This document shows, piece by piece, positions 82 through 21,398 of a stretch of 64,000 bases of DNA. The translations under genes and the position numbers were made by a program. Each line of letters begins with the position of its first letter. Position 1 is the stretch's first letter. Below the pieces are notes generated by a model that saw only the letters and a program-made list of their open reading frames with translations, was not told the DNA's origin and did no database searches. Source of the stretch: Hoeflea sp. Its GTDB lineage: Bacteria; Pseudomonadota; Alphaproteobacteria; Rhizobiales; Rhizobiaceae. The stretch is from contig NZ_NVXQ01000003.1 in the NCBI RefSeq assembly GCF_002733955.1, forward strand, positions 1 to 64,000, given 5' to 3'.

Positions 82-3000
82 TCAGGCGGGTTTTCGAGTG
101 GCGTCGGTGCGCACTTGGCTGATCAGCTCTTCCCGGCGGTACACGCCGAGCTTGCGGTAGATCGAGGCACTGTGATTGGCGACGGTTGACGGCGACAGCC
201 CCAGTTGCTGGGCGATGCGCTTGAAGGTTTTGCCTTCTGACAGATGACGCGCCACTTCCTGCTCGCGCGGGGAGAGCTTGTCGATGGGCAGCGCCGCGCG
301 CAGGTGCATCAGCCACAGCGGACCCTGCGGCGAGGCGCGCGCCTGCAGACTGCCCAGAGCGAAGACTTTGTGGGCGCCCAGCGCGCCCTCGTCGAGCGGG
401 ACCGGCTTGCGGCCGGCAGCTTCGGCGGTGCGGATCTCGAACAGACCACGGATGGCGTTCATCCGCAGGGTCGATTCATTGACCATGTCGGCAAATTCGC
501 GATAGCGGTCCTGGGCGTTGCCGCGCACGGCATGCTGCAGGGTTGCCACCGCATCCGGGGTCCAGGCGTGTTCTTCGCCGCGCATCCGGTAGGCATACTC
601 GCCGCCCACTTCCAGCGAGGTGGCAAGCACCGGATCGTTGGAGAACGCCAGACGGTGACGCTCGGCCGTTTCGGATGCGACTTCGGCAAGTCCAACGCCT
701 TCGATCGTCGTTGCCGTGCCCGTGAAATAGGTTTTGACGAACTCGCTCGACAGTCCGATCGCATCGAAGATCTGCGCTCCGCAATAGGACTGATAGGTCG
801 AGATCCCCATCTTCGACATCACCTTGAGGATGCCCTTGCCGATCGCCTTGATGTAGCGCGAGACAACCTCGTACTGGTCGACTTCCGGCGGGAACTCGCC
901 GCGCGCATGCATGTCGAGCAGCGTGTCGAAGGCGAGATACGGGTTGATCGCTTCCGCACCATAGCCGGCCAGGCAAGCAAAGTGATGGATCTCGCGCGGC
1001 TCGCCCGATTCCACCACCAGCCCGACGGAAGTCCGCAGGCCCTTGCGGATCAGGTGATGATGCACAGCCGCCGTCGCCAGCAATGCCGGGATCGCGATCC
1101 GGTCCGGACCGATCTGACGGTCAGACAGGATGATGATGTTGTAGCCGCCGGTCACAGCCTCTTCGGCCCGGTCGCAAAGCCGGTCGAGTGCGGCCTTCAT
1201 GCCATCCGAACCCTTGTCGCTCGAATAGGTGAAGTCGAGCGTCTTGGTATCGAAGCGATCCTCGGTATGGCCGATCGAGCGGATCTTCTCGAGATCGCCA
1301 TTGGTAAGGATCGGCTGACGCACTTCGAGCCGCTTCTTCTTCGCCGCACCCTTGTGATCAAGAATGTTCGGGCGTGGCCCGATGAACGAGACCAGGCTCA
1401 TCACTAGCTCTTCGCGGATCGGGTCGATCGGCGGGTTGGTCACCTGGGCAAAGTTTTGCTTGAAATAGGTATAGAGCAGCTTCGACTTCTGCGACATGGC
1501 GGAAATCGGCGTGTCCGTGCCCATCGAGCCGATGGCTTCCTGCCCGGTGGTCGCCATTGGCGCCATCAGAATCTTAGTGTCTTCCTGCGAGTAGCCGAAT
1601 GCCTGCTGGCGATCGAGCAGCGAGACATCCTTGCGAAGTGCCCGCGGTTCAACCGGCTTCAGGTCTTCAAGGATCAGCTGGGTGCGCTCAAGCCATTCGC
1701 GATAGGGATGCTTTGCCGCCAGCCCCGACTTGACTTCGGCGTCGGAAATGATCCGGCCTTCTTCCATGTCGATCAGCAGCATCTTGCCCGGCTGCAGCCG
1801 CCACTTCTTGACGATCGAGCTTTCATCCACCGGCAGAACGCCGGCTTCAGAAGCCATGATCACCCGCTCATCATCGGTGACGATATAGCGTGCAGGACGC
1901 AGGCCGTTACGGTCGAGCGTGGCGCCGATCTGGACGCCGTCGGTAAAGGCCACCGCGGCCGGTCCATCCCACGGCTCCATCAAGGCGGCGTGATACTCAT
2001 AGAAAGCCTTGCGGTCTTCGGTCATCAGCGCGTTGCCGGCCCAGGCTTCCGGGATCAGCATCATCACCGCATGCGCCATCGAGTAGCCGCCGCGGATCAG
2101 GAATTCGAGCGCATTGTCAAAACACGCCGTGTCGGACTGGCCTTCGTAGGAAATCGGCCACAGCTTGGAAATGTCGTCGCCGAACAGGGGCGACGAGACC
2201 GATGCCTGGCGCGCCGCCATCCAGTTGACATTGCCGCGCAGCGTGTTGATTTCACCGTTATGCGCCACCATCCGGTAGGGGTGGGCAAGCTTCCATGAGG
2301 GGAAAGTGTTGGTCGAGAACCGCTGGTGAACCAGCGCGACAGCCGATTCAAACCGCGGGTCGCTCAGGTCCTTGTAGTAGGCCCCGACCTGGTAGGCCAG
2401 GAACATGCCCTTGTAGACCACGGTCTGCGTGGACAGCGAGACAAAGTAGAAGCCGTCATCGCCATCATCGATCTCGTTGTAGACCCGGTTCGAGATCACC
2501 TTGCGCAGCACGAACAGCTGACGCTTGAAATCGGACTGATCTTCCACGCCGTCGCCACGACCGATGAACACCTGGACATGGCGCGGCTCGGTTGCGGCGA
2601 TCTCGGGCGCCTTCGACAGCGACGAATTGTCGACCGGCACATCGCGGAAGCCGAGCAGGGTCTGGCCTTCGTCAGCAACGACCTCGGCAATAATGCCCTT
2701 GAGGTGCTCGCAAAGGGCCTCGTCCTGCGGCATAAAAATGAAACCCACGGCGTAATCGCCGGCGGCAGGCAGCGTCACGCCCTGTTCGGCCATCTCTTCG
2801 CGGAAGAATCGGTCCGGGATCTGCACCAGCAGGCCGGCGCCATCGCCCATCAGCGGGTCTGCGCCAACCGCACCGCGGTGAGTGAGGTTTTCGAGCATGA
2901 AAAGGCCGTCGCGCACGATCTGGTGAGATTTCTGACCCTTCATGTGCGCAACAAAGCCGACGCCGCAGGCATCATGTTCGTTACGGGGATCGTAAAGACC

Positions 3001-3102
3001 CTGTTTGTGCGGCAATCCAAAGGTCTGCGCGGTGGTCGGCTTGCGATCGGCACGAGCCTCGCAAGCGGTAACGTCCGTCAGAGATGGTGTAAGGTCTGCC
3101 AT
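82..3102 (-). CDS. gltB: Truncated glutamate synthase large subunit fused to a LuxR-type HTH
   Basis: GltB is the NADPH-GOGAT large subunit: it takes glutamine apart through an N-terminal cysteine and passes ammonia to 2-oxoglutarate at an FMN/3Fe-4S site. Seen here: a short propeptide, the class II amidotransferase nucleophile in DACGVGF (about residue 46), the glutaminase domain, the central domain, and only the first part of the FMN barrel. At about residue 905 (base 387) GltB identity stops after RKPVPLDE. About 100 residues follow that end in a LuxR HTH (LSPREQEV, then GLSPSTVANH and IYRKLGV, about 942-997). Full GltB is usually near 1500-1570 residues, so the FMN site, iron-sulfur cysteines and C-terminal helix are missing. 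The ATG at 3102 is preferred over 3108 because GGAGGA lies about 7 bases upstream of it. No gltD is nearby. The product should not be a working GOGAT. A natural deletion fusion or an assembly join are both possible. Confidence 0.85.
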   Translation of the reverse strand: MADLTPSLTDVTACEARADRKPTTAQTFGLPHKQGLYDPRNEHDACGVGFVAHMKGQKSHQIVRDGLFMLENLTHRGAVGADPLMGDGAGLLVQIPDRFFREEMAEQGVTLPAAGDYAVGFIFMPQDEALCEHLKGIIAEVVADEGQTLLGFRDVPVDNSSLSKAPEIAATEPRHVQVFIGRGDGVEDQSDFKRQLFVLRKVISNRVYNEIDDGDDGFYFVSLSTQTVVYKGMFLAYQVGAYYKDLSDPRFESAVALVHQRFSTNTFPSWKLAHPYRMVAHNGEINTLRGNVNWMAARQASVSSPLFGDDISKLWPISYEGQSDTACFDNALEFLIRGGYSMAHAVMMLIPEAWAGNALMTEDRKAFYEYHAALMEPWDGPAAVAFTDGVQIGATLDRNGLRPARYIVTDDERVIMASEAGVLPVDESSIVKKWRLQPGKMLLIDMEEGRIISDAEVKSGLAAKHPYREWLERTQLILEDLKPVEPRALRKDVSLLDRQQAFGYSQEDTKILMAPMATTGQEAIGSMGTDTPISAMSQKSKLLYTYFKQNFAQVTNPPIDPIREELVMSLVSFIGPRPNILDHKGAAKKKRLEVRQPILTNGDLEKIRSIGHTEDRFDTKTLDFTYSSDKGSDGMKAALDRLCDRAEEAVTGGYNIIILSDRQIGPDRIAIPALLATAAVHHHLIRKGLRTSVGLVVESGEPREIHHFACLAGYGAEAINPYLAFDTLLDMHARGEFPPEVDQYEVVSRYIKAIGKGILKVMSKMGISTYQSYCGAQIFDAIGLSSEFVKTYFTGTATTIEGVGLAEVASETAERHRLAFSNDPVLATSLEVGGEYAYRMRGEEHAWTPDAVATLQHAVRGNAQDRYREFADMVNESTLRMNAIRGLFEIRTAEAAGRKPVPLDEGALGAHKVFALGSLQARASPQGPLWLMHLRAALPIDKLSPREQEVARHLSEGKTFKRIAQQLGLSPSTVANHSASIYRKLGVYRREELISQVRTDATRKPA

Positions 3103-3693
3103 CTTCATTCCTCCTTCATGGCCGCCGTAGCGGTTGATCCCGGCCCATCGTTCGCCCCCGCCGGGTGCGGCGACGCTTTACGTTCCGGATACAATTGTCG
3201 TCTGGCCATGCGCGCCTATCAGCTTCACCCGGTGTGTGCGGGCGCGCGGCGTGGTTTTGTATCATGAAGGGGCAGTACGGTCACCATGAACCGCCGCATC
3301 GCATTAATGGCAGATGCTGGTGTCAGCCCCTTGTATCCGTTCAGGCCTTTGCCAGTGAACCCTGTCAGACACAAATAGGACAGCAAGGCTGTCCTATTTC
3401 GATAGTTCTATGACAGAATGCTGGACGTTGCGCAAGATACCGACCTCAAAAAACCGCAGGCGCGCGACCTTAAATGATCAAACAGGTCAACGACGCGCAA
3501 TTTAATTGCTCTGACGCGCATCAATCTGGTGTTTTGCTGTTGCGGGCATGGAATCACCCGGGGGAACTCGGTTCTTCCGGCATCTCTTCAAAGCCGTCCT
3601 TGCTCACCCCCTACAGCCGGTGAGGCTCTTTGAAAGCCTGCCAATTCATGCCATAGCCCAACCACCAATACACCCTATCGGAGACCCAACGGC
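3103..3693. other. Intergenic region between divergent gltB and ltaE
   Basis: About 590 bases without a convincing gene. It must hold the gltB promoter and leader on the minus strand and the ltaE promoter on the plus strand. The only clear structure is the perfect inverted repeat at 3373-3399. The short plus-strand frames here have unusual composition, no ribosome-binding site and no recognisable family. Confidence 0.6.
3373..3399. promoter_or_regulatory. Perfect 12-bp inverted repeat with 3-nt spacer
   Basis: AAATAGGACAGC (3373-3384), AAG, then GCTGTCCTATTT (3388-3399). Outer CTGTCA (3362-3367) and TGACAG (3411-3416) are also complementary, so the dyad extends across about 55 bases. No T-tract follows on either strand, so a repressor operator or RNA hairpin fits better than a terminator. 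It lies about 270 bases upstream of the gltB start. Confidence 0.55.
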
Positions 3694-4743
3694 ATGATCT
3701 TCACCTCGGACAACTGGGCCGGCGCTCACCCTTCCATCGCAGCTTCGCTGACCGCCCATTCGACCGGCTTTGCTCCGGCTTACGGCACCAGCAATCTGGA
3801 TCGCAAGGTAGAGCAGAAGTTCAACGAGGTGTTTGGACAAGAGGTCGCGGTTTTCTTTGTCGGGACCGGCACCGCCGCAAACTCTCTGGCACTGTCGACG
3901 GTCAACCGGCCAGGCGGCGTCTCCTTCTGCCACAGCGAAGCCCACGTCATCGCCGACGAATGCGGCGCGCCTGAATTTTTCAGCCATGGTTCGAGGCTCG
4001 CACCGGTCGACGGGCTGGAAGGAAAGATGGACCCTGCCAGTCTGGAGGCGCAGATCGCGCGCTTCCCGGCGGGCTTTGTTCATGCCGGCCAGCCGATGGC
4101 GATCACGCTCACTCAGGCGACCGAATCCGGCACCATCTACACCGCTGATGAAATCCGTGCGATTTCGGCCATGGCCAAGGCGCATGGCCTGCCGTTGCAT
4201 ATGGATGGCGCGCGCTTTGCCAATGCGCTGGTCGCGCTTGACCTCACACCAGCGCAGATGACAGCCGACCTGGGTGTCGACATTGTTTCCTTTGGCGGCA
4301 CCAAGAACGGATGCTGGTGCGCCGAAGCCCTGGTATTTCTCAAGCCAGAGATGGCCAACCAGACCCCCTTCATCCGTAAACGTGCGGCGCATCTGTTTTC
4401 CAAGAGCCGCTTCATCGCAGCCCAGTTCGACGCCTATTTCGAGGACGGTCTCTGGCTTGAGATCGCACGGCATGCAAACGCCATGTCTGCCCGCCTGCAA
4501 ACGGGCATCAACAGTTCGGCCAACGCGCGCCTGGCCTGGCAAAGCCCCGCAAACGAAACCTTCCCCATTGTCTCGAAGGCGCTTTCCAAAAAGCTTTCGG
4601 ACAAGGGCGCAATGTTTTACGAATGGGCGGCTCCGCGTTCGGTGGCGCACATGGTCGGCCCGGACGACACCATGCTCAGGCTGGTGACCAGCTTCGCCAC
4701 AACCGAGGACCATGTCGATCAGTTCATCGACATGATCGGCTGA
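3694..4743 (+). CDS. ltaE: Low-specificity L-threonine aldolase
   Basis: A 349-residue PLP enzyme of the beta-eliminating lyase fold. It would cleave L-threonine or L-allo-threonine to glycine and acetaldehyde in the cytosol. The Schiff-base lysine is K204 in SFGGTKNG, D171 in HMDGARF should hold the PLP ring nitrogen, and H84 in SEAHV should stack on the cofactor; GTGTAAN near residue 57 forms the phosphate-binding loop. Length is typical. The start is supported by GGAG about 11 bases upstream. It stands alone between the gltB region and the bufferin operon. Closely related beta-hydroxyaspartate aldolases cannot be fully excluded by eye. Confidence 0.9.
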   Translation: MIFTSDNWAGAHPSIAASLTAHSTGFAPAYGTSNLDRKVEQKFNEVFGQEVAVFFVGTGTAANSLALSTVNRPGGVSFCHSEAHVIADECGAPEFFSHGSRLAPVDGLEGKMDPASLEAQIARFPAGFVHAGQPMAITLTQATESGTIYTADEIRAISAMAKAHGLPLHMDGARFANALVALDLTPAQMTADLGVDIVSFGGTKNGCWCAEALVFLKPEMANQTPFIRKRAAHLFSKSRFIAAQFDAYFEDGLWLEIARHANAMSARLQTGINSSANARLAWQSPANETFPIVSKALSKKLSDKGAMFYEWAAPRSVAHMVGPDDTMLRLVTSFATTEDHVDQFIDMIG

Positions 4744-4861
4744 GTTCAGCGTCCAGGGCTCGCCCTCCTACACTAAGCGGTCTCCATCACGTCCGGCTCA
4801 CGCGCAAGTGATGCCGGATAACGTGCGCTTGATTTCCAAGTGATGATTGATGTTGTCATGG

Positions 4862-4893
4862 TTGTTCTGCCGGACAGAAATAGTTCGGAACAA
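4862..4893. promoter_or_regulatory. Nested inverted repeats upstream of the bufferin-like operon
   Basis: TTGTTC (4862-4867) pairs with GAACAA (4888-4893). Nested in it are TTCTG-CCGGA-CAGAA (4865-4879) and GTTC-G-GAAC (4883-4891). The element sits 28-59 bases ahead of the DUF2282 start. It could be an operator or a structured 5' end. No sequence resembling the Caulobacter sigmaF consensus (GTAACC, about 16 bases, CGAA) was found here. Confidence 0.4.
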
Positions 4894-4920
4894 GGTCTAA
4901 GAACATCCAAGGAGAACAGC

Positions 4921-5226
4921 ATGTCACAGAAAACAATTGTCGGCGCATCAGCTCTTGCTGGCGCAGTAGCCATGGCCATTTCAGGCGCCACATTCCTCGG
5001 CTCGACGCAGGGCGCAGCAGCAGCCACTGAAAAATGCTATGGTGTTGCCATGGCAGGCAAGAACGATTGCGCTGCAGGTCCCGGCACCACCTGCGCCGGA
5101 ACGTCCAAGGTCGATTACCAGGGCAATGCCTGGAAAAGCGTCGATGCTGGAACCTGCGCCACGATGAGTGTCGAAGGTGGCCGCATGGGTTCGCTTGAGC
5201 CACTGGATCGCGACCTGCCGGCCTGA
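4921..5226 (+). CDS. DUF2282 precursor peptide, bufferin-type (BufA-like)
   Basis: A 101-residue exported small protein. Residues 1-35 look like a cleavable signal peptide: a basic start, an Ala/Gly-rich hydrophobic core and an Ala-rich cleavage region. The mature part begins near TEKCYG and has four cysteines (C39, C50, C58, C79) in the DUF2282 pattern KCYG, NDCA, TCAG, GTC. In characterised bufferins a DUF692 enzyme converts core cysteines to thiooxazole-type heterocycles that bind copper; that this one is processed so is inferred from the operon. The start at 4921 is chosen over an in-frame ATG at 4840 because AAGGAG lies 8 bases upstream and the signal peptide then begins correctly. It is first in a four-gene operon, 33 bases ahead of the modifying enzyme. 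Confidence 0.85.
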
Positions 5227-5259
5227 TCCGGAGAAACACTGGCAAACGGGAATTTCGAA

Positions 5260-6180
5260 ATGACGCAGGTCGCCCCCACATCGCCGATTGTCACGACGTC
5301 CCGTTTTCCAGACGGCCCGCTCCCGCCACGTGCGGGGGCGGGTCTCAAGCCAGAACACATCGACGCCATCCTGGCCGATGACTACCGGATCGGCTTTCTC
5401 GAGGTCCATGCCGAAAACTACATGGGCGACGGCGGTCCCGCCCACCGAGGACTGGAAGCCATTCGCGTCAAGTTTCCGCTCTCCGTTCATGGCGTCGGCC
5501 TCTCCATCGGATCTGAAAGCGGCATCAATCCCGACCATCTCGAGCGCCTCGCCAGGGTTGTCGAGCGCTATGAACCGGCGATGGTGTCCGAGCACCTCGC
5601 CTGGTCGAGCCATGACGCAGGCTATTTCAACGATCTTCTGCCAGTGCCCTACAATGCCCGGACGCTTGACCGCGTGGTGGCCCATATCGGTCAGATCCAG
5701 GACCGGCTCAAGCGGCCGATCCTGCTGGAAAACCCCTCCACCTATGTGGCCTTTGAACAGACAACCATGAGCGAGACCGATTTCATCCGCGAAATCGCCC
5801 AGAAATCCGGTTGCGGCCTGTTGCTCGACATCAACAATGTCTTTGTCTCCGCCACCAATCATGGCTGGAAGCCGATGCATTACCTGCGCGATTTCCCGCT
5901 GGAACTGGTCGAGGAAATTCATCTCGCCGGCCATGCAGAGGACACCGATGACGAAGGCGACCTCCTGTTGATCGATGCTCACGACCGCCCGGTTTCCAAC
6001 GAAGTGTGGAAACTCTACGAAATCGTCATCAGCCAGGCCGGCGCGCTGCCAACACTGGTCGAATGGGACAATGATGTGCCCGAATGGCCGGTGCTGCGCC
6101 GCGAGGCACGCCTTGCCGACGCCATTCTGGCCCGGCTCGGACCGGCTTCTCTGCTAGGATCCCGTCATGCCGCGGAGTGA
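5260..6180 (+). CDS. DUF692 multinuclear iron oxygenase (BufB-like)
   Basis: 306 residues, a TIM-barrel MNIO enzyme. Family members use two or three iron ions and dioxygen to modify cysteines of a partner peptide. Likely metal ligands and signature segments are visible in order: EVHAENY (H50, E52), SVHGVG (H77), SEHLAW (E111, H112), LLENPS (E157), LLLDINNVFV (D190), HLAGH (H221, H225), DAHDRP (D239, H241) and VEWDND (E268, D270), so the active site looks intact. It follows the DUF2282 precursor by 33 bases and overlaps the DUF2063 gene by 14 bases, which suggests translational coupling and a joint modification complex. The family assignment is firm; the substrate is inferred from adjacency. 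Confidence 0.92.
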   Translation: MTQVAPTSPIVTTSRFPDGPLPPRAGAGLKPEHIDAILADDYRIGFLEVHAENYMGDGGPAHRGLEAIRVKFPLSVHGVGLSIGSESGINPDHLERLARVVERYEPAMVSEHLAWSSHDAGYFNDLLPVPYNARTLDRVVAHIGQIQDRLKRPILLENPSTYVAFEQTTMSETDFIREIAQKSGCGLLLDINNVFVSATNHGWKPMHYLRDFPLELVEEIHLAGHAEDTDDEGDLLLIDAHDRPVSNEVWKLYEIVISQAGALPTLVEWDNDVPEWPVLRREARLADAILARLGPASLLGSRHAAE

Positions 6181-6970
6181 TGCAGTGACCGCAGGCGAGC
6201 AGCACGATTTCGGTGCAGCCCTGCTGGATCCTGACCTGCCGCTGCCCGAAGGCATCGTCGGCCCGCACGGCAAGAAGGCCGAAAAGCGCTTCGCAGTCTA
6301 CCGCAACAATGTCACCGTCAGCCTCATCAACGCGCTGGCGGATATTTTCCCGGCCGTGCAACGGCTCGTCGGCGAGGATTTTTTCCGGGATATGGCGAGG
6401 CTCTACATCGCCAAGGAGCCACCGGGCTCCGCAGTCATCTTCGAGTATGGTGGCGGATTTGCAGCATTCCTTCAAAACTTCGAGCCACTCTCACGCTATC
6501 CCTACCTGGCAGATGTGGCGCGGCTGGAAAAAGCCTGGCTTGCGGCTTTTCATGCAGCCGATGCAGCCCCCTTGCAGCCTGAGACCCTTGCAGTGATCCC
6601 GCCCAACGGGCTCGCTGAAATCCGCTTCACTGCCCATCCGGCAGCACGCATCCTTCAAAGTCCATTTGCCGCGGTATCAATCTTCACGGCCAGTCGCGAA
6701 CAGCGGCCACTTGACGGCATCAAGCCGGCCACACACGAAGACGGCCTCATCACCCGGCCCTTCGACGCTGTCGAGGTGCGACAACTTCCGCCCGGGGCAG
6801 CAAAGTTCCTGGGCGCCTTGATCGCCGGGGACCCGCTCGGCGAGGCCGCCGGCCACACCATGGCCGATCATCCCGGCTTCGATCTGCCGGCCGCAATTTC
6901 AGCCATGCTTGAAGCCGGCGTGTTTTCCGCCTGTTCTGCTAGCCAGCCAAACCCGGAGCACACCCCATGA
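6167..6970 (+). CDS. DUF2063 partner protein of the MNIO enzyme (BufC-like)
   Basis: 267 residues. The N-terminal part is the DUF2063 (DNA-binding-like) domain, recognised by FAVYRNNVTVSLINAL and the following PAVQRLVGEDFF. In MNIO systems this protein binds the precursor leader and delivers it to the DUF692 enzyme; it is not thought to act on DNA. The C-terminal half (about 140-260) is less conserved. It overlaps the enzyme gene upstream by 14 bases and the DoxX gene downstream by 4 bases (ATGA), so the operon is tightly coupled. No signal peptide is seen, so precursor modification should be cytoplasmic, before export. Confidence 0.88.
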   Translation: MPRSDAVTAGEQHDFGAALLDPDLPLPEGIVGPHGKKAEKRFAVYRNNVTVSLINALADIFPAVQRLVGEDFFRDMARLYIAKEPPGSAVIFEYGGGFAAFLQNFEPLSRYPYLADVARLEKAWLAAFHAADAAPLQPETLAVIPPNGLAEIRFTAHPAARILQSPFAAVSIFTASREQRPLDGIKPATHEDGLITRPFDAVEVRQLPPGAAKFLGALIAGDPLGEAAGHTMADHPGFDLPAAISAMLEAGVFSACSASQPNPEHTP

Positions 6971-7548
6971 GATCCGCGATCGATTTTCTGACCAGCCTCC
7001 ATGACCGCGTTTTCGGCTTTCTCGAGCGGATCGGCGACGCGTGGCTGCTCGGACTGATCGCCCGATTCGCATTTGCCGCCGTGCTGTGGGTCTATTTCCT
7101 GAATTCGGCCCGAACCAAGGTTGGCGATGGCTTTCTAGGGTTTTTCTCGATCTCGCCCGGCGCCTATTACCAAATTGCGCTTCCGGCGGTGGAAGCAGCC
7201 GGCGGCGACGTCGATGCGGTGGCTTTCCTGCCCTGGGGCCTCATTGTGGCGATGGGCACCTACGCCGAGTTCCTTCTGCCGCTGCTGATCGTCATCGGCC
7301 TGTTTTCCCGGCTGGCAGCTCTCGGAATGATCGGTTTCATCGCGGTGCAGACCTTTGTCGACATCACCGTTCACCAGATCGGGGCCGAAGCCATCGGCGG
7401 CTGGTTCGACAGGTTCCCCGACAGTGTCATTGCCGATCAACGCCTGCTGTGGATCGTGCCACTGTCCGTGATCATCCTCCAGGGTCCGGGATTGCTCTCC
7501 GTTGATGCCCTGCTCAGCCGCTTTAGACTGGCCACATACCGGGCCTGA
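6967..7548 (+). CDS. DoxX-family membrane protein, last gene of the bufferin-like operon
   Basis: 193 residues with four or more hydrophobic segments: LLGLIARFAFAAVLWVYFL, a Gly/Ala-rich segment near residues 90-115, one near 115-130, and IVPLSVIIL near 170. DoxX proteins are small inner-membrane proteins often found in redox or metal stress operons; a role in quinone-linked or respiratory chemistry is proposed for some, but the function here is unknown. It overlaps the DUF2063 gene by ATGA. The operon ends at a strong hairpin at 7578-7603. Confidence 0.8.
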   Translation: MRSAIDFLTSLHDRVFGFLERIGDAWLLGLIARFAFAAVLWVYFLNSARTKVGDGFLGFFSISPGAYYQIALPAVEAAGGDVDAVAFLPWGLIVAMGTYAEFLLPLLIVIGLFSRLAALGMIGFIAVQTFVDITVHQIGAEAIGGWFDRFPDSVIADQRLLWIVPLSVIILQGPGLLSVDALLSRFRLATYRA

Positions 7549-7574
7549 CCCGGCGAACAGCCCCTATCAATACG

Positions 7575-7603
7575 AAAATGGCGCCCAGTTGCCTGGGCGC
7601 CAT
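7575..7603. terminator. Hairpin terminator between convergent doxX and hsp20
   Basis: ATGGCGCCCAG (7578-7588), loop TTGC, CTGGGCGCCAT (7593-7603): a perfect 11-bp stem. On the minus strand it is followed by TTTTCG, so it is a good rho-independent terminator for hsp20. The T-tract is poor on the plus strand. Confidence 0.8.
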
Positions 7604-7634
7604 AAAGCCTGTTCCACTTTGGGGGAGGATAGGA

Positions 7635-8102
7635 TCAGGCCTGCGTGGCTTCGATCTGCTTCGTATCGGCGCCGGCATCCTTGGTGATGGCGATGCGGCG
7701 CGGCTTCATTGCCTCGGGGATCTCGCGAACCAGGTCGATATGCAGCAAGCCGTTGCGCAGCGATGCGCCGGTCACTTCGACATGGTCGGCAAGCTGGAAG
7801 CGGCGCTCGAAGGCGCGCTTGGCAATGCCGCGATACAGATACTGCGTGGTTTCGGCTTCACCGTCTTCAGCCTTCTCGCCCTTGACGGTCAGCACGTGTT
7901 CACGCGCTTCGATCGAAATCTCGGCTTCGTCGAAACCCGCAACCGCCATGGTGATGCGGTAGGTGCTTTCGCCGGTGCGTTCGATATTGTAGGGCGGATA
8001 GGACTGCGACTGATCGGTTGGAGCCATGCCATCGAGCATGGTCAGCAACTTGTCGAAACCGACAGTGGAACGGTAGAGGGGTGAAAAATCAACGTGACGC
8101 AT
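7635..8102 (-). CDS. ibpA: Small heat-shock protein Hsp20/IbpA family
   Basis: 155 residues with an N-terminal arm (MRHVDFSPLYRSTVGFDKL), an alpha-crystallin domain (about 38-130) and a short C-terminal tail. It would act as an ATP-independent holdase on unfolding proteins in the cytosol. The arm and PPYNIERTGE are typical of class A rhizobial sHsps. The start is supported by AAGGAGGA seven bases upstream, which itself sits in the thermometer hairpin. Transcription from a sigma32-type promoter and translational control by the ROSE-like leader fit the family. Monocistronic. Confidence 0.93.
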   Translation of the reverse strand: MRHVDFSPLYRSTVGFDKLLTMLDGMAPTDQSQSYPPYNIERTGESTYRITMAVAGFDEAEISIEAREHVLTVKGEKAEDGEAETTQYLYRGIAKRAFERRFQLADHVEVTGASLRNGLLHIDLVREIPEAMKPRRIAITKDAGADTKQIEATQA

Positions 8103-12719: not shown

Positions 12720-14207
12720 TCAACCAACGGCGGCAACCCGGCCGGACGTCACCCCGACATGACTTTCGCTGAGGACTGCGAACACCGACCCCACACCCAC
12801 GAGCACAGGTTCATCGTATCCGATGATTGTCATTCCTTCGGCAAGGTCCCGCAGCGCCCCGGTCCAGCGTTCAAATCCTTCGCGGGCGACGGATCTGGAA
12901 ATCACCACCGGCATCGATGGATCCATGCCGTTTTCGGTGAGCCGGGTCGCGATCTCGCCGGCCGTGCGGCCACCCATGTAGAACACAGTGGTGGTTCGGC
13001 GATCAGCGATACCGGCCCAATCGAGATCCTTCGGCAGCTCGCCGTTGCGGCTGTGGCCGGTGACGAAACGGACCGACTGGGCATGATCCCGGTGCGTCAG
13101 CGACACACCAAGCTGGGCGGCCATCGCCAGGGCCGAGGTGATGCCGGGAACCACCGACACGGTGATCCCCTCGTCCTGAAGCCGGGCGATCTCCTCGCCT
13201 GCCCGGCCAAAGATCATCGGATCACCACCCTTCAGCCGAACCACATGCTTGCCGGCCTTGGCAAGCGCGATCATCGTTGCATTGATGTCGTCCTGCTTGC
13301 AGCTCTCGCGGCCGCCGCGCTTGCCCACCAGCATGCGCCTGGCTTCGCGCCGCGCCAGTTCCAGCACCTCGCCGGAGACAAGATCATCAAACAGGATCAC
13401 ATCAGCCGCCTGCAACGCGCGAACGGCTTTCAGCGTCAGAAGCTCCGCGTCCCCCGGACCTGCGCCAACTAGCGTGACCCTGCCCTCTCCCCGGGGTCCT
13501 GTCGCCTTGATCGCATTCGCCCAGCGCAGCAATTCGTCAACCGCATCGGCCTCAGGTTCCTTGCCAAAAGACCGGTCAACGAAACCTTCCCAGAAAGCCC
13601 TTCGCTGCGGCCCCGGAGCCAGCCGGTCGTTCACCGCCGTGCGGATGGACTGCGCCAGTTGCGCCCAAGTCGCGAGTGCCGGCGGCACCAGGGTCTCGAT
13701 CCGGCGTCTGATCGCCTGGCCGAGAATGGGGGCAGCACCATCGGTCGAAATCGCGATGACGGCCGGCGAGCGGTTGACGATCGATCCGAACTGGAACTCG
13801 CACCAGGCCGGCTTGTCGATCACGTTGACGGCCACGCCTGCGGTCCGCGCCGCACAGTAGAAGGCCTGCGCCTCGCCGTCGCTCTCCGCGTCACAGATCG
13901 CAATCTGCATCGAGGCAAGGCACTGCGCCGACCACGGCCTCTGGTGCCAGACATAGGCACCCGGCACCGCAGTGGCGGCGATGAGATCGGCGAACACGGG
14001 ATCAAGCTGCTCGGCATAGACATGAACCTTGGCCCCGGCGGCAGCCAGAAGCTCCGCCTTCCAGGCAGCAGCCTCGGATCCGCCGGCGATCAGAACCTTC
14101 TTGCCTTCAAGCTTGTAGAACACCGGCAGCGTCGCCAGCGGCGCCATCCGTTCCTGGCGCGACGGCACGCGCCGCGATTTACTCGGCTGCAATGATCTGA
14201 TGTTCAT
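12720..14207 (-). CDS. cysG: Siroheme synthase (fused dehydrogenase/ferrochelatase and uroporphyrinogen methyltransferase)
   Basis: 495 residues. The N-terminal CysG-B part (about 25-230) begins with an NAD-binding segment (VLIAGGSEAAAWKAELL). The C-terminal SUMT domain (about 240-490) has TLVGAGPGDAELLT, the LKGGDPMIFGRAGEE loop and VPGITSA. It methylates uroporphyrinogen III, then oxidises and inserts iron to make siroheme, the cofactor of NirB in the same operon. It overlaps the nasA stop by 29 bases and is the last gene of the nas operon. Position 2 of the Rossmann glycine motif reads GGS rather than GGG. Confidence 0.92.
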   Translation of the reverse strand: MNIRSLQPSKSRRVPSRQERMAPLATLPVFYKLEGKKVLIAGGSEAAAWKAELLAAAGAKVHVYAEQLDPVFADLIAATAVPGAYVWHQRPWSAQCLASMQIAICDAESDGEAQAFYCAARTAGVAVNVIDKPAWCEFQFGSIVNRSPAVIAISTDGAAPILGQAIRRRIETLVPPALATWAQLAQSIRTAVNDRLAPGPQRRAFWEGFVDRSFGKEPEADAVDELLRWANAIKATGPRGEGRVTLVGAGPGDAELLTLKAVRALQAADVILFDDLVSGEVLELARREARRMLVGKRGGRESCKQDDINATMIALAKAGKHVVRLKGGDPMIFGRAGEEIARLQDEGITVSVVPGITSALAMAAQLGVSLTHRDHAQSVRFVTGHSRNGELPKDLDWAGIADRRTTTVFYMGGRTAGEIATRLTENGMDPSMPVVISRSVAREGFERWTGALRDLAEGMTIIGYDEPVLVGVGSVFAVLSESHVGVTSGRVAAVG

Positions 14208-16854
14208 CGAGTATCACCTTGATTTCCGCTTTGCAGGAGCCGCAATTGGTGCCGGCGCTGGTGGCGCGCGCGACGGCGTCGACGCTGCCGCAACCACTGC
14301 GGATAGCGCCGATGATGTCGTTGACGCCGACATTCATGCAGGCGCAGACGATGGCGCCCTTGTCCGGCATGTCGTTGGCCGGTCGGCCGGCAATGATCCG
14401 CCAGCGCGAAGACAGGTTGGCGTAATCCTGCTCGAGCTGATCGGCGGCCCAGCTGCGCGACACCGTGACCGGCTGCCGCGACAGATACACCGCGCCAAGC
14501 AGGGACGTGCCGTCAAAGGCGGCATGGCGGGTCACCCCGTTGGTAGGATCGGTGAAGGACAGCAGCGGGGTTCCTGTATCAATGCCCAAAGCCGCACAGA
14601 TGAAGGGCTGAACTTCATCATGGTCCTCCGCCAAAGCGAATTCGGCACGCCAGCCGCCGGTGCTGCGGGCGATGGCCCAATAGGCAGCGGACTCGAACAA
14701 CGGCTTGTTGCGGCTGACCGCAAATCCGTACTGCGAGGCTTCAAACCGTGTCAGGCTGGCAGCGGTGTTCTTCAAGGCAGGCTGGCCGGAGACCGGATCG
14801 ACAACCGGCGCCACCAACCTGTCGACCCGGGCACTTGAGGCCCACTGATCCGTCCAGTGCATCGGCACGAAGAGAGCGCCTGGCTGCTGTCGGTCGGTGA
14901 TCAGCGCCCGCACGACGATCTCGCCGCGCTCGCTTGCAACGCGGACCAGATCCGCTTCACAGATGCCTAGAGCCCTGGCGTCGGCCGGATGGATCTCGGC
15001 AAAGGGTTCGGCGATATGCACGGAGAGGCGCGGGCTTTTCGCCGTCCGTGTCATGGTGTGCCAGTGGTCGCGAATGCGGCCGGTGTTCAGGGTAAATCTG
15101 TACTCGCGGCTTCCCGCCACCTGGCGAGATGGCGCCACCGCGACAAACCGGGCCAGCCGGTCCGGCGTGAAGTAACCGCCATTGGCGAAGAAGCGCGTGT
15201 CGGGCGTCAGCGACCCATCGTCCGCCGGCCTTGGCCACTGGAATGGAGCCATCTCATCGTAAGCGGCATCGTCAATATCGGCGATCCCGCCAAGATCCAG
15301 ATCGCGCGCGCCATCGTTCTCGAAGGCCGTCTGCGCCGCGTATTCGCGCATCACCGAAGCGGCATTGGGAAAATCAAACGCAGCGGCATGGCCCATGCGC
15401 TTGCCGACCTCGGCCATCTGCCACCAGTCGGCCCGGGCCTTGCCGGGCGCTGGCAGGAAGGCACGCGGGCGCGAGATCCGGCGCTCGGAATTGGTCACCG
15501 TGCCGTCCTTCTCGCCCCAGCCCAGCGACGGCAGTTTCACATCCGCGTGCCGGATGGTGTCGGTCTCCGCCATGATGTCGGAGACCACCACAAAGGGGCA
15601 GGCTGCAAGCGCCGCCTCGACCGCGCTCGCGTCCGGCATCGAATCCACCGGATTGGTGGCCATGATCCAGAGTGCCTTGATCTTGCCGTCAGCCACCGCC
15701 TGAAACAGGTCGACCGCCTTGAGCCCCGGCTTGGCGGCAATCTTCGGCGATTTCCAGAAGCGCTGCACCCGGTCGCGATGTTCCGGATTTTCGATTTCCA
15801 TATGGGCTGCCAGCATATTGGCGAGGCCGCCGACCTCACGGCCGCCCATGGCATTGGGCTGACCGGTCACCGAGAACGGCCCCATCCCCGGCCTGCCGAT
15901 ACGGCCGGTGGCCAGATGGCAATTGATGATGGCGTTGACCTTGTCGGTGCCGGTGGATGACTGGTTGACGCCCTGACTGTAGACCGTGACCACCTTTTCG
16001 GCTCCCGCCCACAGCGCGTAAAACTGCTCGAGCTGGGCGATATCAAGCCCGGTTTGCGCCGCCAGGTCGGTCAGATCCTGAGCCCGGGCAACATCCAGCG
16101 CCTGATCAATGCCGCTGGTATGGGCGGCAACATAGGCCTCATCGAGAAAGCCGTTGTCGGCGAGATGCGCCAGCAGGCCGAGGAACAGGCTGACATCGCC
16201 ATCGGGCGCAATGGCCAGATACAGATCGGCAAGGTCGGCGGTCATTGTCCGGCGCGGATCGATCAGCACGATCCTCATCTCGGGCCGCGCCGCCTTGGCC
16301 GCCGCGATCCGCTGGTAGAGCACCGGATGGCACCAGGCGAGGTTCGACCCGGTCAGCACCACCAGATCGGCAAGTTCCAGATCCTCGTAGGTTCCCGGCA
16401 CGGTGTCCGAACCAAAGGCGCGGCGGTGGCCTGCGACAGAGGACGCCATGCAGAGCCGCGAGTTGGTGTCGATATTGGCCGAACCGATAAAGCCCTTCAT
16501 CAGCTTGTTGGCGACGTAGTAGTCCTCGGTCAGCAACTGTCCCGAGACATAGAACGCCACGCTGTCCGGCCCGTGCTCCGCGATCGCCTTGGAGAAAGCA
16601 GATGCCACGAGATCGAGCGCCGTATCCCAGGATGCGCGCCGGCCTCCAACTTCCGGAAACAGCAGGCGTCCATCGAGATCGATGGTTTCGCCCAGCGCCG
16701 AGCCTTTCGAGCACAGGCGCCCGAGGTTTGCGGGATGGTCCGGGTCGCCCTTGATCGTGACGGCGCCACCCTCCTCAAGAGTCGCCAGGACACCACAGCC
16801 CACCCCGCAATAGGGACAGGTGGTCTTGACCGTACGGGCCGGGCCGGCGGTCAT
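14179..16854 (-). CDS. nasA: Assimilatory nitrate reductase catalytic subunit
   Basis: 891 residues of the molybdopterin oxidoreductase family. The N-terminal 4Fe-4S site is C13, C16, C20 and C48 (CPYCGVGCG, then RLCSKG). The Mo-bis-MGD catalytic region follows, including NTNSRLCMAS, then a molydopterin dinucleotide-binding domain (about 600-720) and a C-terminal BFD-like 2Fe-2S domain with four cysteines (VCACMNVG, NCGSCKAE). It reduces nitrate to nitrite in the cytoplasm; the extra 2Fe-2S domain probably takes electrons from the donor. No signal peptide, so it is not the periplasmic Nap type. It overlaps nirD by ATGA. Confidence 0.94.
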   Translation of the reverse strand: MTAGPARTVKTTCPYCGVGCGVLATLEEGGAVTIKGDPDHPANLGRLCSKGSALGETIDLDGRLLFPEVGGRRASWDTALDLVASAFSKAIAEHGPDSVAFYVSGQLLTEDYYVANKLMKGFIGSANIDTNSRLCMASSVAGHRRAFGSDTVPGTYEDLELADLVVLTGSNLAWCHPVLYQRIAAAKAARPEMRIVLIDPRRTMTADLADLYLAIAPDGDVSLFLGLLAHLADNGFLDEAYVAAHTSGIDQALDVARAQDLTDLAAQTGLDIAQLEQFYALWAGAEKVVTVYSQGVNQSSTGTDKVNAIINCHLATGRIGRPGMGPFSVTGQPNAMGGREVGGLANMLAAHMEIENPEHRDRVQRFWKSPKIAAKPGLKAVDLFQAVADGKIKALWIMATNPVDSMPDASAVEAALAACPFVVVSDIMAETDTIRHADVKLPSLGWGEKDGTVTNSERRISRPRAFLPAPGKARADWWQMAEVGKRMGHAAAFDFPNAASVMREYAAQTAFENDGARDLDLGGIADIDDAAYDEMAPFQWPRPADDGSLTPDTRFFANGGYFTPDRLARFVAVAPSRQVAGSREYRFTLNTGRIRDHWHTMTRTAKSPRLSVHIAEPFAEIHPADARALGICEADLVRVASERGEIVVRALITDRQQPGALFVPMHWTDQWASSARVDRLVAPVVDPVSGQPALKNTAASLTRFEASQYGFAVSRNKPLFESAAYWAIARSTGGWRAEFALAEDHDEVQPFICAALGIDTGTPLLSFTDPTNGVTRHAAFDGTSLLGAVYLSRQPVTVSRSWAADQLEQDYANLSSRWRIIAGRPANDMPDKGAIVCACMNVGVNDIIGAIRSGCGSVDAVARATSAGTNCGSCKAEIKVILDEHQIIAAE

Positions 16855-17183
16855 TTCGCCGGACCAAGGCCGAGAATGACCTCCTCGCCATCAAGCCGCA
16901 CCGGGATCGACAGGGTCTGCCCCTCGTCGGCCCCTTGCGCAACACCGGTCTCGAGGCTGATGACCCAGTTGTGCAAGGGACAGGTGACGCAGCCGTCATG
17001 CACGATGCCCTGGCTCAGCGGTCCGTTTCTGTGCGGACACTTGTCTTCGAGCGCGAACACCCGGTCATCGGCGGTGCGGAAGATGGCGATGCTCATCTCC
17101 CCGCTCTTCACACAACGCGCGCCGCGCCGCGGAATGTCGTTGATGCTGCCAACCCGGACCCATGCCTGTGTCATCGCGTTCAT
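16851..17183 (-). CDS. nirD: Nitrite reductase (NADH) small subunit
   Basis: 110 residues, a Rieske-like fold with the full cluster motif C49-x-H51 (KCPHRNGPLS) and C68-x-x-H71 (TCPLHNW). Some NirD proteins lack these ligands; here they are intact, so a Rieske 2Fe-2S cluster is expected. It partners NirB. It overlaps both neighbours by four bases (ATGA), which indicates translational coupling and fixed stoichiometry. Confidence 0.93.
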   Translation of the reverse strand: MNAMTQAWVRVGSINDIPRRGARCVKSGEMSIAIFRTADDRVFALEDKCPHRNGPLSQGIVHDGCVTCPLHNWVISLETGVAQGADEGQTLSIPVRLDGEEVILGLGPAK

Positions 17184-19633
17184 TCCGCTGCCTCCAGACT
17201 CAGTGTCGCCATCGGGTTGAACTCATGCTTGTCCTTGCCCGAGACCCGTTCCGACCAGGGGTCGACCTGGGCAAATTTCTGGCTGAAGACGAAGCGGTCG
17301 TAATAGCCCTTCCGCTTTTCGGGCTGCTGTATGATCTGGTCGCGGATCTCGTCGAGACCGATGCGCTTGGCCCATTTGTAGATGCGTTCGAGATAGCGCC
17401 CCTGCTCGCGGTACATCTGCGCCAGCGCCACGACATGCTCCATGACCTCGTCTTCGGTCTTTACATGCCCAAGGATTTCGGTGCCCTTGATGTCGAGCCC
17501 GGCGGCGCCGGCGAAATGGATCTCGTAGCCCGAGTCGACACAGATGACCCCGATATCCTTGCAGGTGGCTTCAGCGCAATTGCGCGGGCAGCCCGACACC
17601 GCCAGCTTGAGTTTCGCCGGGGTCCAGGAGCCCCACATGAATTTTTCCAGCTTGATGCCGAGACCGGTGGAATCCTGCGTGCCGAACCGGCACCAGTCAG
17701 TGCCGACGCAGGTTTTGACCGTGCGCAGCCCCTTGGCATAGGCCTGTCCGGACACGAAACCGGCCTTGCCCAGATCCGCCCACACCGCCGGCAGATCCTC
17801 TTTCTTAATGCCGAGCATGTCGATGCGCTGGCCACCGGTGCATTTGACCGCCGGAATGTTGAACTTGTCGACCACATCGGCGATCGCCCGGAGTTCGGTG
17901 GAGGACGTCATACCGCCCCACATCCGCGGCACCACGGAATAGGTGCCGTCCTTCTGGATATTGGCGTGGACCCGCTCGTTGATGAAGCGCGACTGGTAGT
18001 CGTCGGCATATTCATCCGGCCAGTCACAGACCAGATAATAATTCAGCGCCGGTCGGCATTTGGCGCAGCCGCAGGAGGTTTTCCATTCCAGTTCCTGCAT
18101 CACCGCCGGAATGGTCTTGAGTTCCTTGGCCTTGATCAGGCGGCGCACGTCATCATGGCCAAGCTCGGTGCAGCCGCACATCGGCGTCACCGCCGCCGGA
18201 TTGTAGGCATCGCCCAGAGTGAGTGCGAGCAATTGCTCGACAAGGCCGGTGCAGGTGCCGCAGGAGGCCGACGCCTTGGTGTGGGCCCGAACCTCGTCTA
18301 GGCCGGTCAGCCCCTTGGAAGTGATGGCCGTCGTGATCTTTCCCTTGCAAACGCCGTTGCAGCCGCAGATTTCCGCATCATCCGGCAAGGCTGCAACGGC
18401 TGCCATAGGGTCCATGGGGGACCCTCCCTGATAGGCCTGGCCGAAGATCAGGGTCTCTCGCATCTCCGTTATGTCGGTCTGTTTCTTCAGATGATCGAAG
18501 AACCAGGCGCCATCCGCGGTTTCACCATAGAGCACCACGCCAAGGATCCTGTTGTCCTTGAGCACGAGCCGCTTGTAGACCCCCGCAGCCGCGTCGCGCA
18601 ACACGATCTCTTCGCGGTCCTCGGCCTCGGCGAAATCGCCGACCGAATAGAGATTGATGCCGGTGACCTTGAGCTTGGTCGCCGTCGAGGTCTCGACGAA
18701 CCGCTTGCTCGTGTCACCCGCGAGATGCGCGGCGGCAACCTCGGCCATCTGGTAGAGCGGCGCCACCAGCCCGTAGACATTGCCGTTGACCTCGACGCAC
18801 TCTCCCACCGAATAGATGTCGGGATCGCTGGTCTGCATGTGGTCGGAGACCACGATGCCGCGGTTGACCGAAAGCCCGGCGTCTTTCGCCAGCGCAGCAC
18901 TGGGCCGGATGCCGACCGCCATCACCACCAGCGTCGCCGGGATAATGGTGCCGTCTTCGAGCTCGATGCCTTCAACACGGGTGTCGCCAAGGATCTGTTT
19001 GGTGCTGGCCTTGGTGATGACCTTGATGCCGCGGCTCTCGAGTTCCTGCTCCAGAAGGTAGCCGGCGGCCGGATCAAGCTGCCGCTCCATCAGCGTCGGC
19101 ATCAAGTGGATCACGGTGACATCCATGCCGCGTTCCTTGAGGCCCGCGGCAGCTTCAAGACCGAGCAGGCCGCCGCCGATGACCACGGCCTTGCCGCGCG
19201 ACTGGGCGGCGAGCAGCATCGCGTCGACATCATCAAGATCGCGATAGGTCAGCACGCCGGGCAGCTTGTGGCCGGGAACCGGAATGATGAAGGGCGCAGA
19301 GCCGGTGGCGATCACCAGCTTGTCGTAAGCGGCCACCTCGCCATGCTCCGACCTGACGGTCTTCGCCTCCCGGTCGATCCCGACCACCTTGTGGCCCTTG
19401 TAAAGCATGACGCCATGATCGACGTACCAGCCGTCACCATGGATGATGATGTCTTCGAAGCTTTTCTCGCCCGAGAGCACCGGCGAAAGCATGATCCGGT
19501 CGTAATTGACCCGCGGCTCGGCGTTGAAGATCGTCACCTCATAGGCGTCCGGCGCTGTCTCGAACAGGTGTTCGAGCATACGTCCCGGGGCCATGCCATT
19601 GCCGATGACAACAAGCTTTTGTTTCTCAGTCAT
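17180..19633 (-). CDS. nirB: Nitrite reductase (NADH) large subunit
   Basis: 817 residues. An N-terminal FAD/NAD oxidoreductase region (VVIGNGMAPGRMLEHL, then KAVVIGGGLLGLEAAAGL near 150) is followed by a BFD-like 2Fe-2S domain (CGCNGVCKGK, SCGTCTGLV), a second cysteine group (CGCTELG, CGCAKC) and the C-terminal siroheme/4Fe-4S half with TCVGTDWCRFG and GCPRNCAEATCKD. It reduces nitrite to ammonium with NADH. The ATG at 19633 has GGAG 11 bases upstream. It starts only four bases after the nrtD stop, so transport and reduction are one operon. Confidence 0.95.
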   Translation of the reverse strand: MTEKQKLVVIGNGMAPGRMLEHLFETAPDAYEVTIFNAEPRVNYDRIMLSPVLSGEKSFEDIIIHGDGWYVDHGVMLYKGHKVVGIDREAKTVRSEHGEVAAYDKLVIATGSAPFIIPVPGHKLPGVLTYRDLDDVDAMLLAAQSRGKAVVIGGGLLGLEAAAGLKERGMDVTVIHLMPTLMERQLDPAAGYLLEQELESRGIKVITKASTKQILGDTRVEGIELEDGTIIPATLVVMAVGIRPSAALAKDAGLSVNRGIVVSDHMQTSDPDIYSVGECVEVNGNVYGLVAPLYQMAEVAAAHLAGDTSKRFVETSTATKLKVTGINLYSVGDFAEAEDREEIVLRDAAAGVYKRLVLKDNRILGVVLYGETADGAWFFDHLKKQTDITEMRETLIFGQAYQGGSPMDPMAAVAALPDDAEICGCNGVCKGKITTAITSKGLTGLDEVRAHTKASASCGTCTGLVEQLLALTLGDAYNPAAVTPMCGCTELGHDDVRRLIKAKELKTIPAVMQELEWKTSCGCAKCRPALNYYLVCDWPDEYADDYQSRFINERVHANIQKDGTYSVVPRMWGGMTSSTELRAIADVVDKFNIPAVKCTGGQRIDMLGIKKEDLPAVWADLGKAGFVSGQAYAKGLRTVKTCVGTDWCRFGTQDSTGLGIKLEKFMWGSWTPAKLKLAVSGCPRNCAEATCKDIGVICVDSGYEIHFAGAAGLDIKGTEILGHVKTEDEVMEHVVALAQMYREQGRYLERIYKWAKRIGLDEIRDQIIQQPEKRKGYYDRFVFSQKFAQVDPWSERVSGKDKHEFNPMATLSLEAAE

Positions 19634-19637
19634 GAGC

Positions 19638-21398
19638 TTACTCCGCTGCGGTCAGACTGGTGGCCGCGCCTTTTTGGCGGGCGACCCGTGCAGACCGTTT
19701 TTGAGAAATGGATTGCAGCTGAGCCTCGGACGGGTTGGCGCCGCCCTCATAGGCTTCGAGGAATTCAAGCAGTTCTTCGCGGTAGGCGTAGTAATCAGGG
19801 TGGTTGAGCAGCGCCTTGCGCGAGCGCGGGCGCTCCAGATCGACCTCCATGACATTGCCGATCCTCGCATTGGGCCCGTTCGACATCATCACCACCCGGT
19901 CAGCCAGCAGGATGGCCTCGTCGACATCGTGGGTCACGCAGATGGCGGTGACCTGTGTGCGCTTCCACACATCCATCAGCACGTCCTGCAGCTCCCACCG
20001 GGTCAGGCTGTCGAGCATGCCGAAGGGCTCATCGAGCAGCAGCAGCTTGGGCGACAATGCAAAGGCCCGGGCAATGCCAACCCTCTGTTTCATGCCGTTC
20101 GACAGGTCGGACGCCGCGCGGTGCATGGAATCGAGCAGGCCGACGCGCTGCAGATAATATTCCGCCACGTCGTTGCGCTCGGCCTTGGTCGCATTCGGGT
20201 AAACCCGGTCGACGCCCAGCGCCACATTCTCGTAGGCTGTCAGCCACGGCATCAGCGACGGCGCCTGGAACACCACCGCCCGGTCCGGACCGGCCTCGGT
20301 GATGTGCTTGCCGTCGAGAATGATTGCGCCTTCGGTGATCGGGTTGAGGCCCGCCACCATCGACAGCACCGTGGACTTGCCGCAACCGGAATGGCCAATC
20401 AGCGTGGTGAATTCGCCCTTCTTCATCTTCATCTCGAAGCCGTCGACAACGGTCAGCGGACCCTTTGGCGTTGGGTAGACTTTCTTCAGCTGGCTGAACT
20501 CCAGGAAATTGTCGTCCCTCAGAGCTGTAGACGCCTCGACATAGGCCTTTGGCAGTTTTTCCTTGCCGAGCGAGATCGGCACGATGTTGGGCAGGCGGAT
20601 CTCACGCTCGTCCTCGGAACCGCGTTCGGCGCCAACTTCCATCAGGTAGCTGGTGATTTCACCACGCAGCCGGATGAAATCCGCGTCCGAGTTCATGTCG
20701 GCCCGGTTGCGTGGCCGGGCGATGCTGACCGGGAAATCCGGACCAAGCGTGGCGTTCGGGCCGGGTTTCAGCGGGATGATCCGGTCGGCGAGAAGTATGG
20801 CTTCATCGACATCATTGGTGATGAGGATGATGGTCTTCTTCTCCTTCTGGCAGATGTCGGCAAACTCGTCCTGCAACTTTGCGCGGGTCAGCGCGTCGAG
20901 CGCGGAGAGCGGTTCGTCGAGCAGCAGGACTTCAGGCCGCATGGCCAGCGCCCGGGCCACGGCAACCCGCTGGCGCATGCCGCCCGAGAGTTCCGCCGGC
21001 TTGCGGTCGCGGGCATGGCTCAGCCCCACCATGTCGATATAAGTATCGGCGATGGCGGCCCGCTCGGCGCGGGATTTCCCCTTGAAGACACTGTCGACGG
21101 CAAGGCTGACATTGCCGGCCACCGTCATCCACGGCATCAGCGAATAGGACTGGAACACCACGCCGCGTTCGGGCCCGGGGCCATCGATTTCCTTGCCCTT
21201 GTAGATCACGCCGCCCTCATCGGGCTCGATCAGCCCCGCGAGCAGCGAGATCAGCGTTGTCTTGCCCGAGCCGGAAAAGCCGACAATGGCGATGAATTCA
21301 CCCTCGGCCACTTTCAGGTTGATGTTGCTCAGCACGTCCGTGCGGTCAGCACCTTCGCCGTAGGACTTGGACAGGCCGGAGATTTCGAGAATGGTCAT
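19638..21398 (-). CDS. nrtD: Nitrate ABC transporter ATPase with two fused nucleotide-binding domains
   Basis: 586 residues carrying two complete ABC ATPase domains in tandem. Domain 1 (about 1-250) has Walker [10 protein letters not shown], signature LSGGMRQR and Walker [12 protein letters not shown]. Domain 2 (about 285-540) has GHSGCGKST, signature LSNGMKQR and [11 protein letters not shown]. Both follow the NrtC/NrtD/SsuB subfamily. Cyanobacterial systems use separate NrtC and NrtD; here both sites are on one chain, and NrtC's extra binding-protein-like regulatory domain is absent. It energises uptake with NrtB and NrtA. There is a 9-base gap to nrtB and 4 bases to nirB. Confidence 0.9.

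Follow-up and report, generated by a model that had tools for sequence, protein, structure and literature searches.

The window, by which we mean the whole analysed stretch of 64,000 nucleotides from Hoeflea sp. (contig NZ_NVXQ01000003.1), harbors a run of four genes on the plus strand. The predicted genes and the features associated with them are as follows:

4805..4864, plus strand: conserved 60-base upstream element (motif B), from the alignment of 42 bufA upstream regions, that of the window included
4870..4888, plus strand: candidate 5' leader hairpin CCGGAC-AGAAATA-GTTCGG (fold z of -2.0 for the leader of the window)
4910..4915, plus strand: Shine-Dalgarno-like AGGAGA, from reading of the sequence
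4921..5226, plus strand: bufA, predicted Buf1 bufferin precursor of 101 aa with DUF2282, four cysteines and a signal-peptide-like N-terminus (PF10048, 84.4 bits, cut-off 22.4)
5182..5223, plus strand: codons of the C-terminal tail (BufA residues 88-101), from conservation in the aligned precursors
5260..6180, plus strand: bufB, predicted MNIO-type bufferin maturase (NF050167 MNIO_BufB, 374.6 bits, cut-off 310; PF05114, MbnB_TglH_ChrH, 341.7 bits, cut-off 25)
6167..6970, plus strand: bufC, predicted DUF2063 partner protein of the PME1 type (PF09836, 89.7 bits, cut-off 27.2)
6967..7548, plus strand: doxX, predicted DoxX-family membrane protein, long form of 193 aa (PF07681, 24.0 bits, only just above the cut-off of 23.6)

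The order bufA-MNIO-DUF2063-DoxX, the gene positions and the overlaps of 14 bases between bufB and bufC and of 4 bases between bufC and doxX had all been given in the original prediction, and the open reading frames and Pfam matches agreed with them. One MNIO match and one DUF2282 match were found in the whole genome (E ≤ 0.001). Hoeflea halophila was the nearest named relative found, with an MNIO that is 95% identical. Of the 80 named MNIO loci nearest to that of the window, 70 had all four genes in the same order, and we concluded that the operon is not a product of chance; at the remaining 10 loci at least one of the four matches was missing, in some cases because of a contig end. Since BufB exceeded the cut-off of the curated NCBI model for bufferin maturases (374.6 versus 310 bits), we assigned the four genes with high confidence to the Buf1 (DUF2282) bufferin operons, a known kind with ordinary gene content. 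The gene order and the published definition of Buf1 likewise supported the prediction of a bufferin-type operon (PMC12452194).

Bufferins are a recently described and widespread copper defence. In the available part of the published description, Buf1 precursors contain DUF2282, their central cysteines are converted to thiooxazoles and their outer cysteines form a disulphide; the products chelate copper in the periplasm and support growth when cells are stressed by copper (PMC12452194). The locus of the window resembles the bufABC plus doxX operons described there in its four genes, their order, the standard spacing of the four cysteines and the score with the BufB model. It differs in that its own genome gave no NrsF match, and in an RD-x-P tail of the precursor and a long DoxX, both of which are common to many relatives but not to all bufferins.

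A product of the oxazolin/HvfA type would be conceivable, as the MNIO families are close to one another (PMC12452194) and BufB also matched the HvfB model. The score of 231.5 bits remained, however, below the HvfB cut-off of 360, while the BufB cut-off was exceeded, and BufA lacks the EGKCG repeats and is a DUF2282 protein instead. Membership in the oxazolin (HvfABCX) group was therefore rejected, and we consider a product of this type extremely improbable. Weighing against the bufferin assignment itself, BufC scored 36.7 bits with the HvfC model, under its cut-off of 142, and DoxX only just exceeded its own. The proposed chemistry is shared: in fontiphorin/oxazolin captophorins, as far as described in the accessible part of the report, an MNIO and a DUF2063 partner install 5-thiooxazoles, as we propose for the window, but on precursors with EGKCG repeats and not on a DUF2282 protein (PMC13097082).

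The cysteines of BufA are located at positions 39, 50, 58 and 79. In an alignment of 59 precursors, that of the window included, the four cysteines and G41, G46, N48, A52, G55, G60, D65, V74 and G90 were invariant. The cysteine spacing had been taken as a possible mark of a variant product; this did not hold, as the spacing 11-8-21 is the plain form, present in 103 of 118 DUF2282 matches (the gene of the window being counted three times among the 118), with a minor group of 12 showing 11-7-21. The short tail, proposed as a second mark, fared better. It is conserved, with R97, D98 and P100 each present in 50 of the 59 precursors, and it is missing from some other bufferins, for example at Bradyrhizobium loci and several Rhizobium loci; it is, however, present at other Rhizobium loci and common to many genera. 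The structure model of BufA was weak (mean pLDDT 66.8), so that it supported no conclusion on disulphides or on the position of the tail. By eye, the N-terminus contains K4, a hydrophobic stretch and AAAA ahead of T36, which makes it a candidate Sec-type signal peptide. The protein had been called secreted, and a periplasmic location is most likely what applies, as published for bufferins (PMC12452194).

Tandem precursor genes were seen at seven loci (L072, L077, L078, L080, L082, L084 and L087). One copy of each pair has the 11-7-21 spacing with an HDCAG/HACAG-type centre, and the other copy has the standard spacing.

The metal ligands of the MNIO had been predicted to be intact, and the alignments agreed. 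Nine residues of BufB, which we take to be these ligands (H77, H112, E157, D190, N193, H221, D239, H241 and E268), align with identical residues in 3BWW; TglH matches all of them except H112, and MbnB all except H77, which falls outside the aligned stretch. The DUF2063 match of BufC (PF09836) spans residues 12-102. The BufC model had a pLDDT of 93.2, and Foldseek matches with E ≤ 0.001 were obtained only to TglHI chain A (8hci, 8hi7) and to 3DEE, which has been named as a DUF2063-type partner protein (PMC13097082). RRE matches in the second part of BufC were weak (5v1u, E 3.5). In two Rhizobium loci a protein of about 325 residues is encoded between the MNIO and DUF2063 genes (L051, 5913-6893; L073, 5903-6880), and that of L051 gave no Pfam match at E ≤ 0.001.

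By analogy to the relatives, BufB as a multi-iron oxidase would, together with BufC, oxidise C50 and C58 of cytosolic BufA to thiooxazoles. BufA would then be exported by Sec and cleaved near residue 35, and in the periplasm the outer pair C39-C79 would form a disulphide. The mature protein may sequester copper and possibly other soft metals, with DoxX presumably assisting in some way. Cysteine modification, export and copper binding are all carried over here from what is described for related systems. The main target might instead be another metal or redox stress: the counterpart in Caulobacter is responsive to both dichromate and cadmium (PMC3511200), and fusions to MerC point to further metals (PMC12452194). 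Against this, bufferins are reported as copper chelators that help growth under copper stress (PMC12452194), the gig genes of Cupriavidus metallidurans are induced by copper (PMC10304878), and a Sinorhizobium meliloti fusion showed, in the part of that report available, no response to H2O2, Cd or chromate (PMC6180224). We regard a main role apart from copper as unlikely.

Published Buf1 control, in the accounts at hand, is by a sigma/anti-sigma pair. In Caulobacter crescentus the genes CC3254-CC3257, which form a single operon with the same gene content and order as in the window, are driven by SigF from GTAACC-N16-CGAA and repressed by NrsF (PMC3511200). This promoter was not found upstream of bufA in the window, nor NrsF in the genome. 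The genes SMb20530-SMb20527 of S. meliloti, a four-gene run with DUF692 and DUF2063 genes like that of the window, have a promoter of the RpoE7/EcfR7 type with GTAAC, in an arrangement that resembles SigF/NrsF (PMC6180224); the window has a different upstream element. The search for NrsF in the own genome gave 0 matches at E ≤ 0.001, and the Caulobacter control gave a match. The SigF box GTAAC-N15..19-CG[AT][AC] was absent from the 160 bases upstream of bufA in the window; among the 116 upstream regions compared, 35 contain it.

Cupriavidus metallidurans belongs to another bacterial class than the host of the window. GigA of this species is probably an MNIO, judging from the gene order. Its gigPABT genes, linked to copper resistance, encode a small, probably periplasmic protein with four cysteines, the metal-binding GigA, a DUF2063 protein and a DoxX-like protein; unlike the operon of the window, they are divergent to the sigma and anti-sigma genes rpoQ/rsqA (PMC10304878). 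The metal induction of the Caulobacter operon that the original prediction had cited is borne out by the published work (PMC3511200). It acts, however, via SigF/NrsF, and as the own genome gave no NrsF match, this induction is not simply transferable to the window.

In the place of SigF/NrsF we found the conserved element at 4805-4864, and this element is what is new at the locus, the gene set being of an already known kind. Its pattern is GTGA-N6-GATAACG-N5-TTGATTTCC-N2-[TG]T[GT]A ... A4858, with the core TTGATTTCC at 4829-4837, 92 bases ahead of the bufA start. It recurs ahead of bufA in relatives, with the core beginning 82 to 111 bases from the start codon at 42 sites. These training sites, all distinct sequences, were selected for no more than one mismatch to the core. 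Conservation of the core is thus partly a matter of choice, but that of the flanking positions is not; L049 was left out, its core being 135 bases upstream. Around the core, T, C, T and A positions are nearly fixed, and several columns between the conserved blocks have less than 0.15 bits. The site in the window, itself part of the training set, was the best match of the element model in its own genome (E 1.4e-10). The exact pattern TTGATTTCCNNNTNA had 4 matches in this genome and its reversed control 0. A second TTGATTTCCNNNTNA match, ahead of another DoxX gene (L118), lacks the ATAAC block and has an E value of 0.21, and was therefore counted as chance. No description of the element was found in the open-access literature searched; an earlier mention elsewhere is possible.

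We ran the element model, built from sequence alone, on the 151 genomes of a family sample and compared its sites with the places of DUF2282 and NrsF. Among 89 DUF2282 places, the element without NrsF over cut-off was present at 39, a number that is partly circular, since the training sites include loci of the family (at least L095, L099, L101, L104, L111 and the window), while the absence of NrsF is not affected by this. NrsF without the element was located within 5 kb at 34 places and elsewhere in the genome at 6; 10 places, some of them contig ends or the second gene of two precursors in tandem, had neither, and no place had both. Only NrsF matches over cut-off were counted, leaving out weaker matches in G099, G030, G101 and G129, of which G099 is an element genome with an NrsF-like match of 20.4 bits. 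Of the 39 element places, 37 had E ≤ 0.0122, and two with weaker values (0.0326 and 0.156) were added as they lie ahead of DUF2282 genes. The count omits five of the rows listed, with E between 0.0155 and 0.0317, and most of the weaker ones; inspection by eye revealed no DUF2282 gene on the same strand close to any omitted row of the listing.

An order sample of 249 genomes contained at least 150 DUF2282 places, from which 3 of the family of the window were dropped to give the 147 listed. NrsF was within 5 kb at 30 of these and elsewhere in the genome at 26, in both cases without the element; its positions were entered solely where the genome had a DUF2282 place among those listed, and 89 of the 93 genomes with an NrsF match at E ≤ 0.001 were over cut-off. 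The element was present at 18 places, in a set in which genera of the other training loci may recur, and no place had both. The remaining 73 had neither, which indicates that further regimes exist. Of 17 element sites with E ≤ 0.001, 15 were found ahead of a listed DUF2282 gene, at a distance of 100-600 bases; at E ≤ 0.02, 18 of 39 sites were ahead of such a gene and the other 21 were not. The Fisher p values for element versus NrsF were 4e-16 (family) and 1e-4 (order), on the assumption of independent genomes, which does not hold. At the named locus L026, a SigF-like pattern (148 bases upstream) occurs together with an element core that has a single mismatch. The element thus serves about as many DUF2282 places as NrsF in the family sample (39 versus 34 + 6) and is rarer than NrsF in the wider order (18 versus 56 listed places). 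These comparisons hint at a second mode of control of such operons, via the element and not via SigF/NrsF.

Other traits of the operons went along with the type of promoter in a comparison of 80 named loci plus the window. All 38 element loci with a readable precursor have the tail, and their DoxX is long in 31, short in 6 and was not found in 1. The 18 SigF-box loci have a short tail in 15 cases and the tail in 3, and DoxX is short in all 17 with a DoxX match. The long DoxX of the window clusters by similarity with those of 31 element-type loci and of no SigF-box locus. On the MNIO tree the promoter type changed about 5 times, the tail about 5 times and the DoxX form about 7 times; the association of element, tail and DoxX yielded 2 independent pairs on supported branches and 5 on all branches, too few for significance. 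The neighbour clusters of the window were shared by 33 (Hsp20 side), 32 (hydrolase side) and 30 (lyase side, PF01212) of 37 element loci and by 0 of 19 SigF-box loci, so that part of what is seen is due to shared ancestry.

The shared neighbours and the small number of changes in promoter type would also be expected if the element were a constitutive promoter kept by vertical inheritance of the whole neighbourhood, with the operon under no specific regulation. Conservation within the element is not wholesale, however, as the weakly conserved columns between the blocks demonstrate, and the element is long and specific, with strong matches ahead of DUF2282 genes. A simple scan detected no sigma-70 pattern at the element, or anywhere in 4700-7700. 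We therefore consider a constitutive promoter a rather improbable alternative to a regulatory element.

A regulatory element would be read by a factor encoded elsewhere; clustering the loci by their neighbours revealed no linked regulator. In the alignment, T-x-A triplets recur every ~10-11 bases within the element, a period that would be compatible with tandem binding by a regulator, for instance an OmpR-type response regulator. Taken as a whole, it is highly probable that the locus is a Buf1 operon for a modified, periplasmic, copper-sequestering BufA, expressed via the element at 4805-4864 and not via SigF/NrsF. A wider reading, on which we are evenly divided, is that alphaproteobacterial Buf1 operons fall into at least two mutually exclusive regulatory classes, one under SigF/NrsF and one with the 60-base element and its TTGATTTCC core, without NrsF, read by a probably metal- or envelope-responsive factor; the latter class would carry the RD-x-P tail, possibly as a docking or follower signal. 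If the element is a real switch, the Caulobacter induction data are not transferable to bacteria that bear it, and the element could serve directly as bait in the search for a new sensor of metals or of the envelope state. The tail, as a conserved feature, bears on how bufferin precursors are recognised.

The leader between the element and bufA showed some tendency to fold. The mean fold z was -1.06 for 43 element-type leaders, -1.6 for 33 SigF-type leaders, -0.73 for 36 others and -0.37 for 80 random windows. Among 5 Hoeflea-type leaders, folded in one alignment, a two-sided change was seen in only 1 of 15 predicted pairs, so that there was next to no covariation. No Rfam family matched within 4700-5300 (E ≤ 1).

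A broad regulon of the element was considered and rejected: 9 of the 11 family sites away from DUF2282 genes were inspected and had no common target, and most of the 10 inspected among the 21 order sites away from listed DUF2282 genes had none either. Among these 10, the site of L176 turned out to lie ahead of an MNIO gene after all, the DUF2282 gene not being among the listed places; two sites of one genus were near nadK, and one was ahead of a carbonic-anhydrase-like gene, named by reading. In genus g148 of the same order (L184-L188), an element-like core was present 60-63 bases before a conserved reading frame near nadK in all five genomes searched. The encoded membrane peptide has 35 residues with two cysteines five residues apart, in most cases as MNC...TCFDRRYA. 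No comparable site was found around nadK in 9 family genomes searched. No other repeated second site with a conserved reading frame close behind it was found, and the element may have a second target at this nadK-side site.

Some observations concern other parts of the window. In the gap that separates doxX from the convergent Hsp20 gene, a strong inverted repeat is present at 7578-7603, followed on the minus strand by a T-rich tail; it is likely the terminator of the Hsp20 gene. A glutamate synthase reading frame at 82-3108 on the minus strand has matches in relatives that begin no earlier than about base 378-389, and in L160 at 593, where the L160 stretch ends; within 1-387 the same frame continues into a LuxR-type HTH (GerE, 55.1 bits). 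As the window starts at the first base of the contig, either a chimera at the contig end or a genuine rearrangement may account for this fusion. A nitrate assimilation cluster on the minus strand (12720-21398) comprises, by Pfam, a sirohaem synthase, a molybdopterin oxidoreductase and a nitrite reductase, and, by reading only, an ABC ATPase.
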